From assembly GCA_947627915.1 (NCBI GenBank), contig CANQXT010000008.1, positions 1 through 36,949 on the forward strand: a stretch of DNA of 36,949 bases, in the 5' to 3' direction. The translations under genes were made by a program, and so were the position numbers. Below are positions 742-28,112 of this stretch, in pieces. This stretch comes from an uncultured Bacilli bacterium. Its GTDB lineage: Bacteria; Bacillota_I; Bacilli_A; RF39; UBA660. Numbering within the stretch: the stretch's first letter is position 1; each line of letters opens with the position of its first letter. Under the pieces are notes generated by a model. The model was not told the DNA's origin, searched no databases, and saw nothing but the letters and a program-made list of their open reading frames with translations.

Positions 742-1696
742 CACCCTCTTCTAACATTTTAGTAATAAACAAACCATAACCAGTTAAAGGATTATCAACA
801 ATAACGTGAGTAACAACTCCAACTATTTTATTATCTTGGACAATAGGTGATCCACTCATTCCTTGGACAACACCACCTGTTTTATTAATTAATTTTTGAT
901 CATCTATTTCAAAAGTTAAATTCTTAGTATTACTTGTTTCATTAATATTGGTAATATTAATTGTAAATTCTTCTACTTTAGAACCATTTAGAACCGTAAA
1001 TAAAGATGCTTTACCTATTTTAATATCACTACTATTACCTACTTTTATAAGTTCTAAATTATCTATATTAGCATTATATATTCCAAAGATACCATGATTA
1101 GTATTTTTGGTTATAGTACCATATACAGTATCATAAAAATATTTAGCATTTTTACTACCAGCTTTACCACTTACCGATTTATCAATTGAAGTAATTAAAT
1201 TTTTAAAAATAATACCTTCTTTAATTTCCACTATACTTTTACTATTACTTTCTACTATTTCGTGTCCTAAAGCACCATATATATTAGTAGAAGGATCAAT
1301 ATAAGTAAGAGTTCCAATACCTGTTATACTATCTTTAACATATAATCCAGTTTTATATATACCATTTTCTTTAATTAATTTTAAATTAGTTGTATATTCT
1401 TTATTATTTCTTTTATAGGTTATATTAACATTTTCCACATTAGTATATTTTTCAATTTCTTTAGTTAATTCTTTTAGAGAATTAACTTTTACTCCATTTA
1501 CTTCTTTTATATAATCTCCAATTCGAAGTTCTCCTTTATTATATTTACCTTCAATAGGATAGAATCCTACTACTAAAATACCATCAGCATTTATCTCAAT
1601 ACCTAAAGTATTACCTCCCCTATAAATATAATCAGAATAAGCCATAACTTTTAAAGGCATTAAGAACATTAATAATAAAATCATATATTTTTTCAT
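731..1696 (-). CDS. spoIVB: SpoIVB-type S55 serine peptidase with PDZ domain
   Basis: Signal peptide, PDZ region, and C-terminal GMSGSPIVQDNKIVGVVTHV serine peptidase motif. Confidence 0.9.
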   Translation of the reverse strand: MKKYMILLLMFLMPLKVMAYSDYIYRGGNTLGIEINADGILVVGFYPIEGKYNKGELRIGDYIKEVNGVKVNSLKELTKEIEKYTNVENVNITYKRNNKEYTTNLKLIKENGIYKTGLYVKDSITGIGTLTYIDPSTNIYGALGHEIVESNSKSIVEIKEGIIFKNLITSIDKSVSGKAGSKNAKYFYDTVYGTITKNTNHGIFGIYNANIDNLELIKVGNSSDIKIGKASLFTVLNGSKVEEFTINITNINETSNTKNLTFEIDDQKLINKTGGVVQGMSGSPIVQDNKIVGVVTHVIVDNPLTGYGLFITKMLEEGEKN

Positions 1697-7980: not shown

Positions 7981-8961
7981 TTACTCCATTATTTCTTTAG
8001 TATAGTCATTAATAATCTTTAATAATTCTTCTTTATTACTTGCAAAACATATTTGATTTTTTATTTTCTTAGTATTAGGAAGGCCTTTAAAGAAATACAT
8101 TAAATGTGTTCTAAGTTCTAAAAGACCTACCTTTTCTCCTTTATCTTTAATAAGTTCTTCAATTATATATTTCATCATTTCTATTTTTTCATTTATTGAG
8201 ACTTCTTTTGGCATTAGATTGTTATCTAAGTATTCCACACATTCTTTAATTAACCAAGGATTACCTAAGAAACCACGACCAATCATTACAGCCGTACATC
8301 CAGTATAATCTAGCATTTTTTTAGCATCATAACAAGTTTTAATATCGCCATTACCAATAACAGGGATAGATACACTTTGAACAACATCTTTAATAACATC
8401 TAAAGAAGATGAACCACTATAACCATCACTACGAGTTCTTCCGTGCACAAAAATAGCACTAGCCCCAGCTTCTTCACAAATTTTAGCAATTTTAGGAGCG
8501 TTAATACTATTATGATCCCAACCTGCTCTTATTTTAACAGTAACAGGAACAGAAACACTTTGAACAACAGAAGATACTATTTGACGTACTTTTTCTTCAT
8601 CTTTTAAAAGACTACTACCAGCATTATTTTTAATAGCTACTTTGGGAACCGGACAACCCATATTTATATCTATAATATCTGGATGCATAACATCTTCAAT
8701 TATTTTAGCAGCTTTTCCCATCGTTTCAGGATCACTACCAAATATTTGTTGGGAAAGAGGTCTTTCAGCATCATCCATTTCTAATAAAGCAAATGTTTTT
8801 TGGGATTCATAAATTAATGCTTTATCTGAAACCATTTCTCCGACCACTAAACCTGCTCCCATATCTTTAGCTAGTTTTCGAAAAGTTTTATTTGTTACTC
8901 CCGCCATTGGAGCCAAAACAACTTGATTTTTAATTGTGACGTTGCCGATTTTCCACTCCAT
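7981..8961 (-). CDS. dus: tRNA-dihydrouridine synthase
   Basis: APMAGVTNKTFRKL, DINMGCPVPKV, VHGRTRSDGYSG, GNGDI, MIGRGFLGNPW. Confidence 0.96.
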   Translation of the reverse strand: MEWKIGNVTIKNQVVLAPMAGVTNKTFRKLAKDMGAGLVVGEMVSDKALIYESQKTFALLEMDDAERPLSQQIFGSDPETMGKAAKIIEDVMHPDIIDINMGCPVPKVAIKNNAGSSLLKDEEKVRQIVSSVVQSVSVPVTVKIRAGWDHNSINAPKIAKICEEAGASAIFVHGRTRSDGYSGSSSLDVIKDVVQSVSIPVIGNGDIKTCYDAKKMLDYTGCTAVMIGRGFLGNPWLIKECVEYLDNNLMPKEVSINEKIEMMKYIIEELIKDKGEKVGLLELRTHLMYFFKGLPNTKKIKNQICFASNKEELLKIINDYTKEIME

Positions 8962-22536: not shown

Positions 22537-23140
22537 GACCTGTTAATATTTCATTTTGATAAATTAATTCTTTCTTTTTTTCTTCAGGAACAACATTTAT
22601 TAATTCCTTATTTTTAGCTAATAAATATTTATAGTAAGCAAGATTATTACTAATACCAAAAAGAATTTCTGTTTCCGTTAATTGTTGTTTTCCTTTTAAA
22701 ACTAACATAATAACATAATAATGATTTTTTTCTAAAACAACTTTTTCTTGAACTATTTTAAAACCTAATTTATTTAAATTTAATCTTAATTTAGGTAATT
22801 CATTATGACTATCAATTATTAATTTCGAAGGACATTTATCACTTTTTATAATATTTAAAATAGTTGAAGTACCCATACCTGCAATAACCGAAGTATTATA
22901 ATAACTATCTATATTATTAAAACCATCACTTAAATAACATTTAATATCTAAATTTCTTTTTTGAAAATTATTTTGAGCGCTCATTAGAGCATTTTTATTT
23001 ATATCACTTGCTAAAACATCTTGGCATAGATTATTTTCTTTTAAATAAATACATAAATAACCATGATCAGTGCCAATATCTAAGACAACATCATCTTTTT
23101 CAACAAAGCTAGCTAAAGTTTTTATTCTTGTACTAATCAT
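22520..23140 (-). CDS. trmK: tRNA (adenine(22)-N(1))-methyltransferase
   Basis: SAM motif [16 protein letters not shown]; adjacent to rpoD. Confidence 0.92.
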
Positions 23141-24255
23141 TGATTATCTAAAAAATCCTTTAATTGTTTAGCTCTTGATGGATGACGTAATTTTCTTAAA
23201 GCTTTTGCTTCTATTTGTCTAATTCTTTCTCTGGTAACATTAAATCTTTTACCAACATCTTCTAAGGTATGACAAATACCATCAACTAAACCAAAACGTA
23301 GTTCTAAAACTTGTTGTTCTCGAGGTTGTAAAGTTTGTAATACTTCTTTTATTTTTTCTTTTAATATTTCATTTTCAGCATATTCTTCTGGTGATAAACT
23401 AGATTCATCTTTTAGAAAATCTCCTAAATGAGAATCATCTTCTTCCCCAATTGGAGTTTCCAAAGATACTGGTTCTTGACTTATTTTAATAACTTCTCTT
23501 ACTTTATCAACAGATATACCCATTTTCTTAGCTATTTCTTCTTCACTTGGTTCACGATTTAATTCCAAAGTCATTTGTCTTTGGACACGAACCATTTTAT
23601 TAATTGTTTCAACCATATGAACTGGTACTCTAATAGTTCTTGCTTGATCTGCTAAAGCTCTTGTAATTGCTTGTCTTATCCACCATGTAGCATAAGTTGA
23701 AAATTTATATCCTTTATCATAATCAAATTTTTCAACAGCTTTCATTAATCCTAAATTACCTTCTTGGATTAAATCAAGAAATAATAAACCACGGCCAACA
23801 TATCTTTTAGCAATACTGACAACTAATCTTAAATTACTTTCTGCAAGTATTTTTTCAGCTTCTTTATCCCCTGCTGCTATACGCATTGAAATATTCATTT
23901 CATCTTCACTAGATAATAAGCTAATTCGACCAATTTCTTTTAAATACATTCTTACAGGATCATTTATATTAACATCTTTTGTAATTTCAGCATCATCTAA
24001 TAATATTGGTTCTTCTTCATCTAATTTAAGATTAAGTGCTCCACCTTCAGCTTCATCAGCATCTTCTTCATTAATAACACTAATCTCAGACTCTAAAAAT
24101 AAATTATATAAATCGTCTAAATCATTGGCATCTAACTCTAATCCTTTTAAAGCTTCAGCTAATTCTTCAAATGTTATATACCCTTTCTCTTTACCCTTTT
24201 TTAATAATTCTTCTTTTCTTTCCTCTAATGTTTTAATTTCAACCATTTTTTCCAT
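23137..24255 (-). CDS. rpoD: Primary sigma factor RpoD/SigA
   Basis: [73 protein letters not shown]. Confidence 0.98.
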
Positions 24256-24258
24256 TAT

Positions 24259-26007
24259 CTACACTTCCTTTATATTTATAATCTTTTTCTTAATTTCAAT
24301 TTGTTTCTTTAAATTATTAAATTGTTCCTCTTCATTAGTAGTATGAACTATTTTCGCTCTAACTTCTTGCATATTATCATTTTTTAATATATTATCAATA
24401 ACTTTAAGATAATTTAAAAAATCATTTTCATCTAAAGTATCAATATTAACTCTTCCACATATATTATTAACAAACTCTCTTAAATTATCATATTCTTCTA
24501 TATATGTTAGAAAGTCTGCTAAATTTATTTTATGATGCTTTTCAATATAATACTCTATTTCTGTAACTAATTCTCTTTCTATACTATTTTTTAAAAATCC
24601 TAATTGTTTATTAAATATCTTCATATATTTACTATCACTCATCATATAATATAGAATTACTTCTACACATTCATCATATTTATTTTGAGGTTTCTTTATT
24701 TTGAATATTTCTTTAGGTATTTCCTTTTTTTCTTCTTTAAATTGAACTTCTTTTTTTAATGTTTCATAATCTATATCATACTCATTACTTAATTTTTTTA
24801 AAGTAATTTCTTTAGTTAGATTATCTTCTTTATCTAACAACTTTAAAACTGATTTAATATAATTAACTAATTCTTCCGTATTATTAAGATTCTTATTTTC
24901 TTTTAAATACTGTAATTTAAAATCAAAATAATTAATACTATTATTAATAGTGTCTTTAAATTTATCAACACCATATTTTAAAATATATTCATCTGGATCT
25001 TTAGCACCCGTTAAACGTACAACTTTAACCACAACATTTTCTTTTTCTAATTCATTACCAACATTCATTGTGGCCAGTGCTCCAGCATTATCATTATCAA
25101 GCATCAAGATAACTGGCACTCTTAAATTTTTTAAAATGCTTATTTGTTCTTTCGTAATACTTGTACCCATTAATGCTAAAACATTATTTATACCACTTGA
25201 AGACACACGTATCGCATCCATATTACCTTCAACTAAAATAACACTCTTTTCACTTTTAATATAATTTTTAGCATTATAATAATTAAAAATAATATTTCCT
25301 TTTTTATATATCTTAGTTTCTTTTGTATTTATATATTTAGCACTATCTTCATTATTAAATATTCTTCCCGTATAACCAACTATATGACCATCTAAATCAG
25401 TTATGGGTATCATTATTCGATTTTGAAATTTATCATAACCACTTAAACCATCTTTAGTTATTAAGCCAAGTTCATCTAATAAATTTACATCATAATTCTT
25501 TTTAGTTAATACTTCATATAAATAATTATTATTCTTAATAGCTAAACCAATTTTAAAATCTTTAATTATTTTTTCAGTAATACCTCTTTTTTCTAAATAC
25601 TCTTTAGCTTTTATACCTTCTTTACTACTTAAATTATTTTGGAATATTTTTGTAGCATATTCCATTATCTCATATTCTAATTTAAATTTAGTATTTTCTT
25701 TTTTTAGACCTTCAATTTGAAGAGGTATCCCAATTCGATCAGCAACTTTTTTGACTGCTTCTATATAACTTATGTTTTCATAATCTTTAACGAACGTAAA
25801 AACATTTCCACCTTTATTACATACAAAGCATTTGAATAGTTGCCTTTCTTTAGAAACGGACATACTTGGTGTATGGTCATCATGAAAAGGACAAATTCCA
25901 AAATAATTACGACCTTGCATTTTAAGTGGAATATAATCTGAAATAATACTTACTATATCAGCAGAATTTCTTATCTCATTTATTTTGTCTTCACTAATTA
26001 CTCGCAT
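24259..26007 (-). CDS. dnaG: DNA primase
   Basis: Zinc motif CPFHDDHTPSMSVSKERQLFKCFVC; TOPRIM VILVEGNMDAIRV. Confidence 0.97.
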   Translation of the reverse strand: MRVISEDKINEIRNSADIVSIISDYIPLKMQGRNYFGICPFHDDHTPSMSVSKERQLFKCFVCNKGGNVFTFVKDYENISYIEAVKKVADRIGIPLQIEGLKKENTKFKLEYEIMEYATKIFQNNLSSKEGIKAKEYLEKRGITEKIIKDFKIGLAIKNNNYLYEVLTKKNYDVNLLDELGLITKDGLSGYDKFQNRIMIPITDLDGHIVGYTGRIFNNEDSAKYINTKETKIYKKGNIIFNYYNAKNYIKSEKSVILVEGNMDAIRVSSSGINNVLALMGTSITKEQISILKNLRVPVILMLDNDNAGALATMNVGNELEKENVVVKVVRLTGAKDPDEYILKYGVDKFKDTINNSINYFDFKLQYLKENKNLNNTEELVNYIKSVLKLLDKEDNLTKEITLKKLSNEYDIDYETLKKEVQFKEEKKEIPKEIFKIKKPQNKYDECVEVILYYMMSDSKYMKIFNKQLGFLKNSIERELVTEIEYYIEKHHKINLADFLTYIEEYDNLREFVNNICGRVNIDTLDENDFLNYLKVIDNILKNDNMQEVRAKIVHTTNEEEQFNNLKKQIEIKKKIINIKEV

Positions 26008-26040
26008 TTTTCCCCTCTATTTATATATATTGTCTTTAGC

Positions 26041-26079
26041 ATATCAATTTCCTTTTTTTACATTCAAAAAAATTGATAT
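26041..26079 (-). promoter_or_regulatory. 10-bp perfect inverted repeat in the dnaG 5'UTR
   Basis: ATATCAATTT...AAATTGATAT separated by 19 nt. Confidence 0.5.
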
Positions 26080-26135
26080 TTGACATTTTTTTACACTTTT
26101 CTTCAATAAAAATCCCATTTCTAAGATATTAAAAT

Positions 26136-26163
26136 AGTATAGCAAATATTTTGAAATTGTCAA
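26136..26163 (-). promoter_or_regulatory. Sigma-A promoter for dnaG-rpoD
   Basis: TTGACA-N16-TATACT with extended -10 TGC. Confidence 0.7.
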
Positions 26164-26177
26164 ATATTTTAGATAGT

Positions 26178-26214
26178 AAAAAAAGAAAACTCCATCATAT
26201 TGACGAAGCTTTTC
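26178..26214 (-). terminator. Intrinsic terminator downstream of the tandem pseudoknot element
   Basis: GAAAAGCTTC...GGAGTTTTC followed by T7. Confidence 0.65.
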
Positions 26215-26224
26215 TTCATTTTCA

Positions 26225-26322
26225 ACCGGGATTACTTATTACTCGCTAGCCACCCGGAAGCGAGAAACATTGTCGACCGGGATTACTTATTACTCGCTAG
26301 CCACCCGGAAGCGAGAAACATT
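26225..26322. repeat. Perfect 47-bp direct repeat, two units, period 51
   Basis: ACCGGGATTACTTATTACTCGCTAGCCACCCGGAAGCGAGAAACATT at 26225-26271 and 26276-26322. Confidence 0.97.
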
Positions 26323-26348
26323 TCCACACTTTTCTGTGCAATTTAAAT

Positions 26349-26378
26349 ATACTACATTTTGATAGAAATAGCAATCAA
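26349..26378 (-). promoter_or_regulatory. Candidate promoter of the pseudoknot RNA
   Basis: TTGATT-N18-TAGTAT. Confidence 0.4.
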
Positions 26379-26387
26379 AAATTTTAT

Positions 26388-28112
26388 TTAATTCATTGCT
26401 CTTTTAAACATTTTTTCTAAATCATAAATACTAAATTTAATTATTGTAGGTCTTCCGTGAGGACAATTATATGGATTATCACATTTAACTAAGTTTTTAA
26501 GTAATCCTTCTATTTCCAACATTGATATATGTTCATTAGCTTTTATAGCCATCTTACATGCTAAAGTAATGGCAACATTTTCTCGAAATTTTATAACATC
26601 AAAATCACCATTTAAATTAATAATTAAATCAATTATCTTTCTGATACTTTCTTCTTCATAACCAGTTTTTAACCAAGTTGGATGACTTAATATTTTAATA
26701 GTGTTAATACCAAAGTTTTCCCATTTAAAACCCATATTATTAAATACCTCTTGATGATTACAAAAATCTTGATATTCACTAGCTTTAAATTCAATAGTAA
26801 TAGGTATTAACATATCTATAATATTTATTTCTTCTTTTTTTAAATTATTTAAATAATTCTCATAATTTACTCTTTCTTGCGCAGCATGTTGATCAAGTAA
26901 ATAAATACCTTCATCATTTTCACAAACAATATAAGTACCTAAACATAATCCCACAGGATATAGAATTAAACTTTTAAATTCTTCATTTTTAACTGGGGTT
27001 TCTAAATCTTGAAAATCAAAAGTAGTTTGTTTAATAATTTCAGAATTATTAACAACATTTATATTATCTTTTTTATTTTCATAATTATAATAAGTATCTT
27101 CTTTATCTTTAATAGCATCCGGTATTAATAAATTATTATATAAAACATCTTTAATAGTATTATATATTAAATCATATAAAGAATCCATTTTACTTATTTT
27201 AACATCTTGTTTAGTAGGGTGAATATTAACATCTACTAAAGTAGGATCTACTTCTATATTAAGAACTACTATAGGATATTTACCATCAGGTTTATAAGTA
27301 TAATAAGCATCATTAATTGCTCGATTAATATCATTATTTCTAACTACGCGACCATTAATAAAAGTAATTAAACTATTACGATTAGATTTTAATATTTCTG
27401 GTTTACATACATAACCATTAATAGCAAAATCATCATTTATTTTCTTTATTTCTAACATTTTTTTAGATATATTTAAACCAAATATTTCATGAATAGTTTT
27501 AAGTAAATTATTACTACCACTTGTTTTAAAAATAACATTATTATTATTAGTTAAAGAAAAAGATATATTTGGTTTAGCTAAAGCTAACTTCTCTAAAAAA
27601 CTAGTTATATTAGCTAATTCTGTTTGTTCACTTTTTAAATATTTAAGTCTTGCTGGAGTATTATAAAATAAATTAGTTACAGTTATTTTCGTTCCTTTTC
27701 GCTCATTACTAAAACCTTGTTCAATAATACTACCACCTTTAATATGAATAAGAGTTCCAACATTATCTTTACAGGTTTCTAAAAAAACTTCAGAAACACT
27801 AGCAATAGATGGTAATGCTTCACCTCTAAAACCTAAAGTATTAATAAAAAATAAATCATCATCTTTATATATTTTACTAGTGGCATGTCTTTGAAATGCT
27901 AGAATAGCATCACTACTATCCATTCCAATACCATCATCTATAACACAAACTTCTTTAATACCACCATCTAATAAATTAACTTTTATATTTGAAGATTTAG
28001 CATCAATACTATTTTCAACTAATTCTTTAACAATCGAAGCACATTTCTCAATTACTTCTCCTGCCGCAATTTTATTTGCTAAATTTTCACTCATTACTTT
28101 AATAACACTCAT
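26388..28112 (-). CDS. mutL: DNA mismatch repair protein MutL
   Basis: IAAGEVIEKCASIVKELVENSIDA, GFRGEALPSIASV, DQHAAQERVNYE endonuclease motif, CPHGRPTI. Confidence 0.96.
   Translation of the reverse strand: MSVIKVMSENLANKIAAGEVIEKCASIVKELVENSIDAKSSNIKVNLLDGGIKEVCVIDDGIGMDSSDAILAFQRHATSKIYKDDDLFFINTLGFRGEALPSIASVSEVFLETCKDNVGTLIHIKGGSIIEQGFSNERKGTKITVTNLFYNTPARLKYLKSEQTELANITSFLEKLALAKPNISFSLTNNNNVIFKTSGSNNLLKTIHEIFGLNISKKMLEIKKINDDFAINGYVCKPEILKSNRNSLITFINGRVVRNNDINRAINDAYYTYKPDGKYPIVVLNIEVDPTLVDVNIHPTKQDVKISKMDSLYDLIYNTIKDVLYNNLLIPDAIKDKEDTYYNYENKKDNINVVNNSEIIKQTTFDFQDLETPVKNEEFKSLILYPVGLCLGTYIVCENDEGIYLLDQHAAQERVNYENYLNNLKKEEINIIDMLIPITIEFKASEYQDFCNHQEVFNNMGFKWENFGINTIKILSHPTWLKTGYEEESIRKIIDLIINLNGDFDVIKFRENVAITLACKMAIKANEHISMLEIEGLLKNLVKCDNPYNCPHGRPTIIKFSIYDLEKMFKRAMN

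Follow-up and report, generated by a model that had tools for sequence, protein, structure and literature searches.

The window, the whole 36,949-nucleotide stretch of an uncultured Bacilli bacterium that was analysed, carries on its minus strand the order mutL, a short repeat array, dnaG and rpoD (Table 1). The array is a tandem repeat of period 51 in two copies, placed at 26217-26267 and 26268-26318 by a repeat scan of the window, and 47 bp are identical between the copies (26225-26271 and 26276-26322). The two identical units at this spacing described in an earlier note are real, with none in shuffles (the 39-mer of the repeat had 0 matches in dinucleotide-shuffled sequence), and that note's choice of the minus strand as the structured one is supported. 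Read on this strand the unit is AAUGUUU-CUCGCU-U-CCGGG-UGGCU-AGCGAG-UAAUAAGUAAU-CCCGG, and unit 2 differs from unit 1 only in its 3′ tail, UUGAA.

The proposal that the array is a self-contained unit running from promoter to terminator also holds. The promoter is not the TTGATT-N18-TAGTAT first suggested; alignment with homologous loci replaces it with the putative TTGCTA-N17-TATATT, which lines up with the TTGACA-N17-TATATT ahead of complete cptIN loci and has a weaker -35 box than these. The predicted intrinsic terminator is present as a hairpin (26212-26186) followed by a U tract, and in loci L004-L006 its homologs stand between the arrays and cptN. The separate strong dnaG promoter is present as well, and is stronger than that of the array.

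Table 1. Positions of features in the window and of CptI-like arrays and cptIN systems on phage contigs and contigs classed viral.
Feature	Sequence	Position	Strand	Basis or context
mutL	window	26388-28112	-	gene call, Pfam
Array promoter TTGCTA-N17-TATATT (putative)	window	26346-26374	-	consensus scan and alignment with homologous loci
CptI-type pseudoknot unit 1 (AAUGUUUCUCGCUUCCGGGUGGCUAGCGAGUAAUAAGUAAUCCCGGUCGAC)	window	26272-26322	-	cmsearch 26274-26318, 63.6 bits
CptI-type pseudoknot unit 2	window	26221-26271	-	cmsearch 26223-26267, 63.3 bits
Rho-independent terminator, directly after array	window	26178-26217	-	fold z=-4.2; homologous to L004-L006 terminators
dnaG promoter TTGACA-16-TATACT, outside the element	window	26136-26163	-	consensus scan
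dnaG	window	24259-26007	-	gene call, Pfam; occupies position expected for cptN
rpoD	window	23137-24255	-	gene call, Pfam
CptI-like array without CptN	L185	2713-2794	-	60.9 kb phage contig; portal, terminase, 14 tRNAs
CptI-like array without CptN	L229	about 780-900	+	71 kb phage contig
CptI-like array without CptN	L255	about 8904-8945	-	9 kb phage fragment
Complete SHORT system	L110	4829-5480		contig classed viral
cptIN, distant CptN ORF	L276	8961-9581		contig classed viral
cptIN, distant CptN ORF	L284	11710-12290	-	contig classed viral
cptIN system	L232	3633-3719		contig classed viral

Fold and identity of the repeat units

The proposed fold, an H-type pseudoknot with a 1-nt L1 and a long A-rich loop, is supported, and the covariance check in homologs revealed compensatory changes with both stems kept. 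Over the ten stem pairs of 37 distinct units, 91% of cells are standard pairs (84% in shuffles). Stem 2 is 94% paired and has two-sided changes in all five of its pairs; stem 1 has them in two of five, or in three of five once the phage units and CptI_Er of Eubacterium rectale are added. The covariation signal is lost when the partner is slid by 1-3 columns. The kink in L2 is nearly invariant among distinct units (A29 in 87/88, U30 in 82/88), and the window units have both bases. In CptI_Er, where L1 is a single base and L2 is long and rich in A, mutation of A29/U30 abolishes antitoxicity (PMC4627078). Since the A-minor twist in the crystal structure of CptI resembles that of SAM-II (PMC4627078), the likeness to SAM-II topology drawn earlier is apt.

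The source genome holds two related loci on another contig, C37. One of these (L002) has two units and a similar terminator followed by a 167-aa ORF, which in a comparison with solved structures matched only CptN of the E. rectale CptIN complex (4RMO, E=2.4e-21); Pfam and PADLOC gave no match for this sister toxin. The arrays nearest to that of the window in related genomes have the same kind of ORF downstream, and G036 (L004), from a related species, has a 102-nt two-unit block identical to that of the window at every letter, with a terminator and an intact cptN behind it. Relative to the nearest complete array, the units in the window are unchanged and the promoter and terminator differ by 14-15%. 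Contigs with the window's unit belong to uncultured Bacilli or Bacillales MAGs, most of them from the sample series 'Lapin'.

The defining order of a type III system is promoter, repeats, terminator, toxin (PMC5086642). The window element shares with E. rectale CptIN (4RMO; PMC4627078) the two tandem H-type pseudoknot repeats with their 1-nt L1, long A-rich L2 and A29-U30 kink, the 5′ AA(U)GUUU and 3′ UUGA tails, a Rho-independent terminator immediately 3′ of the array and, after its sister arrays, CptN homologs. It differs from that system in period (51 versus 45 nt), in the sequences of its stems, in its 6-bp stem 1 and UGGCU inter-stem segment, and in having no cptN. The SSR motif of E. rectale CptN reads SSK in the CptN homologs found here, and the residue at the position of Tyr104 is His. 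Assignment to ToxIN was rejected, given a period of 51 against ToxIN repeats of 34-36 nt and a sister toxin that matches CptN, not ToxN.

Where homologous arrays have cptN downstream of the terminator, the window has none, and neither a toxin ORF nor a remnant was found between its terminator and dnaG; the sole CptN match in the source genome as assembled is the one on C37. The arrays fall into two classes, LONG (CTAGCGAG, including the window) and SHORT. In a tree of 51 toxin sequences, a single clade (support 96/92) holds the toxins of 24 of 25 LONG arrays, and the clustering of class labels on the tree far exceeds that in shuffles. The classes are not strict, since at L063 a LONG array lies beside a SHORT-clade toxin. 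High specificity for their toxin has been reported for CptI antitoxins (PMC5086642). The resident L002 toxin belongs to the SHORT clade, so the window array, whose class fits a toxin clade with no member in the genome as assembled, probably does not serve it, and a role as backup for the resident toxin is less likely; by its class the array fits toxins like that of G036.

The units, which the earlier note did not recognise as a known class, are thus CptI antitoxin repeats. Homology to arrays that precede cptN, the kept pseudoknot and terminator, and the absence of a toxin at the locus can all be read directly from the sequence. With array and terminator remaining, the toxin absent and the toxin of its own clade lacking, we interpret the element as a toxin-less CptI antitoxin array, that is, an orphan cptI locus (probability about 0.9). 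The CptI class itself is already known.

Toxin-less arrays in the family and on phages

In a survey of 386 genomes of the family, strong unit matches were grouped into at least 94 arrays. Among the matches listed, 54 of these have an intact cptN, 9 a broken one, and 3 run off the contig; none was found at 28, a few of these being close to a contig end. After deduplication, a set of arrays whose flanks are known comprises 53 complete ones, 26 toxin-less ones and 5 with a toxin fragment. The 14 multi-unit toxin-less arrays of this set keep both stems and the terminator, with 28 of 30 units fully paired, a figure biased upward because a similarity search favours intact units; broken pairing is commoner in single-unit toxin-less arrays. 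A different, unknown toxin downstream of these arrays was considered and rejected, as the genes that follow are mutually unrelated apart from the recurrences described below.

Several of these loci have features of their own. A second orphan in the source genome (L003, 1501-1640) consists of one unit, a terminator and the region of the toxin ribosome-binding site, after which toxin homology ends. At L009, L010, L019, L023 and L034 a complete array-toxin locus is closely preceded by an extra array with its own terminator, an arrangement that looks like toxin loss from an older system or stacking of arrays. At L036 a NUDIX-like gene, which looks like a replacement of the toxin, starts at the latter's apparent ribosome-binding site and start codon. 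At L007 (456-1430, minus strand), L008 and L177 the gene immediately after a toxin-less array encodes a choloylglycine hydrolase (bile salt hydrolase family), and at L007 a cptIN-like terminator also follows the hydrolase gene. This pairing occurs in three genera (G004, G044 and G103); across 30 loci only G044 and G103 had it besides G004.

Strict search patterns of the window's class found nothing in viral sequences, and looser patterns gave the phage arrays of Table 1. In all three tailed-phage contigs (L185, L229 and L255) the array adjoins an exonuclease gene (phrog_284) near the terminase genes, and the stems are swapped yet paired; among relatives of this phage gene, such arrays accompany 3 of 11. 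The first unit of L229 shares 36 of 41 positions with CptI_Er; of the five that differ, four make up two compensated base-pair swaps. The presence of toxin-less CptI arrays on three phage contigs suggests that they are candidate decoy antitoxins, their lack of a toxin not being proof of its absence as the contigs may be incomplete. Annotated phages yielded no CptN relative, and plasmids three distant ones. The contigs classed viral (L110, L276, L284 and L232) carry complete cptIN systems. That of L110 looks like a conjugative element, given its HerA/VirB4-like ATPase, and one stop codon lies in or next to each of the toxin matches at L232 and L284.

Antitoxin function or relic

If the array functions, we envisage the following course. 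It would be transcribed into an RNA of about 165 nt, whose two units would each fold as a CptI pseudoknot. Should a CptN of the matching clade enter the cell, on a mobile element or from a neighbour genome, it would cut this RNA into monomers, which would in turn bind and neutralise it, amounting to anti-addiction or anti-defence immunity. From the sequence comparisons, we consider it about an even chance that the array has been kept for such a neutralising function rather than as a relic.

A functionless relic, in which a cptIN locus was inserted or brought in, the toxin was deleted and the array remains for lack of time, has only slightly poorer odds. The family contains a graded series of intact, broken and partly deleted toxins, and some orphans keep toxin fragments; there are chimeric remnants (for example L044, L055 and L003), decay at L019 and at L025-L027, the latter being single-unit orphans, and the one-unit remnant at L003 lies in the source genome itself. 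Against this, stems and terminator are intact in multi-unit orphans, and divergence of units relative to promoters is not raised in orphans (0.90, versus 1.24 in complete loci), a comparison that is suggestive and cannot separate constraint before toxin loss from constraint after it. The units of the window array are likewise unchanged beside flanks 14-15% removed from the nearest complete array, a divergence that may predate toxin loss.

More tentatively, and at somewhat less than even odds, toxin-less CptI arrays may be widespread, selected stand-alone RNA antitoxins, serving gut Bacilli as anti-addiction elements and tailed phages as decoys against defence by CptIN. The chromosomal part of this joint claim, put forward with the same reserve, would be immunity against CptN on mobile elements. 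If functional, toxin-less arrays would amount to RNA-only immunity against a toxin; interest would be higher if chromosomal and phage orphans both act in this way, and is moderate for the window array alone. The L229 unit is close enough to the crystallised and assayed CptI that silencing of CptN should be assayable in existing E. coli set-ups.

Discussion of orphan antitoxins has mainly concerned protein antitoxins. In the open-access literature, which leaves out most subscription papers, we found no report of chromosomal orphan type III RNA antitoxins. Type II orphan or anti-addiction antitoxins (PMC7354431) have no adjacent toxin and are proposed to protect against incoming systems; they are proteins, whereas the window element would be a structured RNA. 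The phage PhiTE pseudo-ToxI is a further parallel, a set of toxin-less repeats whose expanded form, once expressed, can neutralise a type III toxin (PMC3475682). Like the window array it consists of RNA repeats of antitoxin type with no toxin gene, and L185, L229 and L255 parallel it. It is of the ToxIN family, however, with 36-nt repeats, phage-borne and with only 1.5 repeats in the wild type, which do not make up a complete unit (PMC3475682), whereas the window array is chromosomal and has two complete CptI-type units.

Other readings of the locus

An assembly artefact, in which short reads were misjoined at a repeat common to several genomes of one metagenome, is improbable. The source assembly is a 1.29-Mb draft in 90 contigs (92% complete), the 102-nt block recurs unchanged in another MAG, other arrays have the same repeat, and among the relatives examined only the source genome has mutL and dnaG adjacent, other genes following mutL elsewhere. 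Against a misjoin, the 3′ side, where the terminator runs directly into the dnaG promoter, is unique in sequence. Only a join within the repeats themselves would call the missing toxin on that side into question. Toxin-less arrays also recur on other, longer contigs, such as the 75.6-kb contig of L008. The mutL-dnaG adjacency itself (26007-26388) could stem from a rearrangement, or from misjoining at the array.

The earlier suggestion of a riboswitch or attenuator acting on dnaG-rpoD, or of a new kind of stand-alone sRNA, has very little left in its favour beyond the position of a structured RNA, with its own terminator, directly upstream of dnaG. Its dnaG part fails because the region upstream of dnaG lacks the array in all 11 other members of the genus whose genomes could be read there, and the closest relatives have a TTGAC...TATACT-like dnaG promoter without it; moreover, the unit family is cptI and toxin-less arrays precede many unrelated genes. 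Rfam had no match at the gathering score in the window and nothing relevant to E=10 in the region, and a SAM-II or preQ1-I riboswitch was rejected for want of an Rfam family match and because the downstream genes vary between loci. That the array is a plain minisatellite without RNA function, its sequence being a tandem repeat, we count as refuted by the compensatory changes in homologs, and the promoter-terminator frame and homology to cptI also speak against it.

The leader of dnaG itself (26008-26059, minus strand; AAAAAAAGGAAATTG...GACAATATATATAAATAGAGGGG) is strongly conserved in relatives and is possibly a conserved 5′ UTR element.
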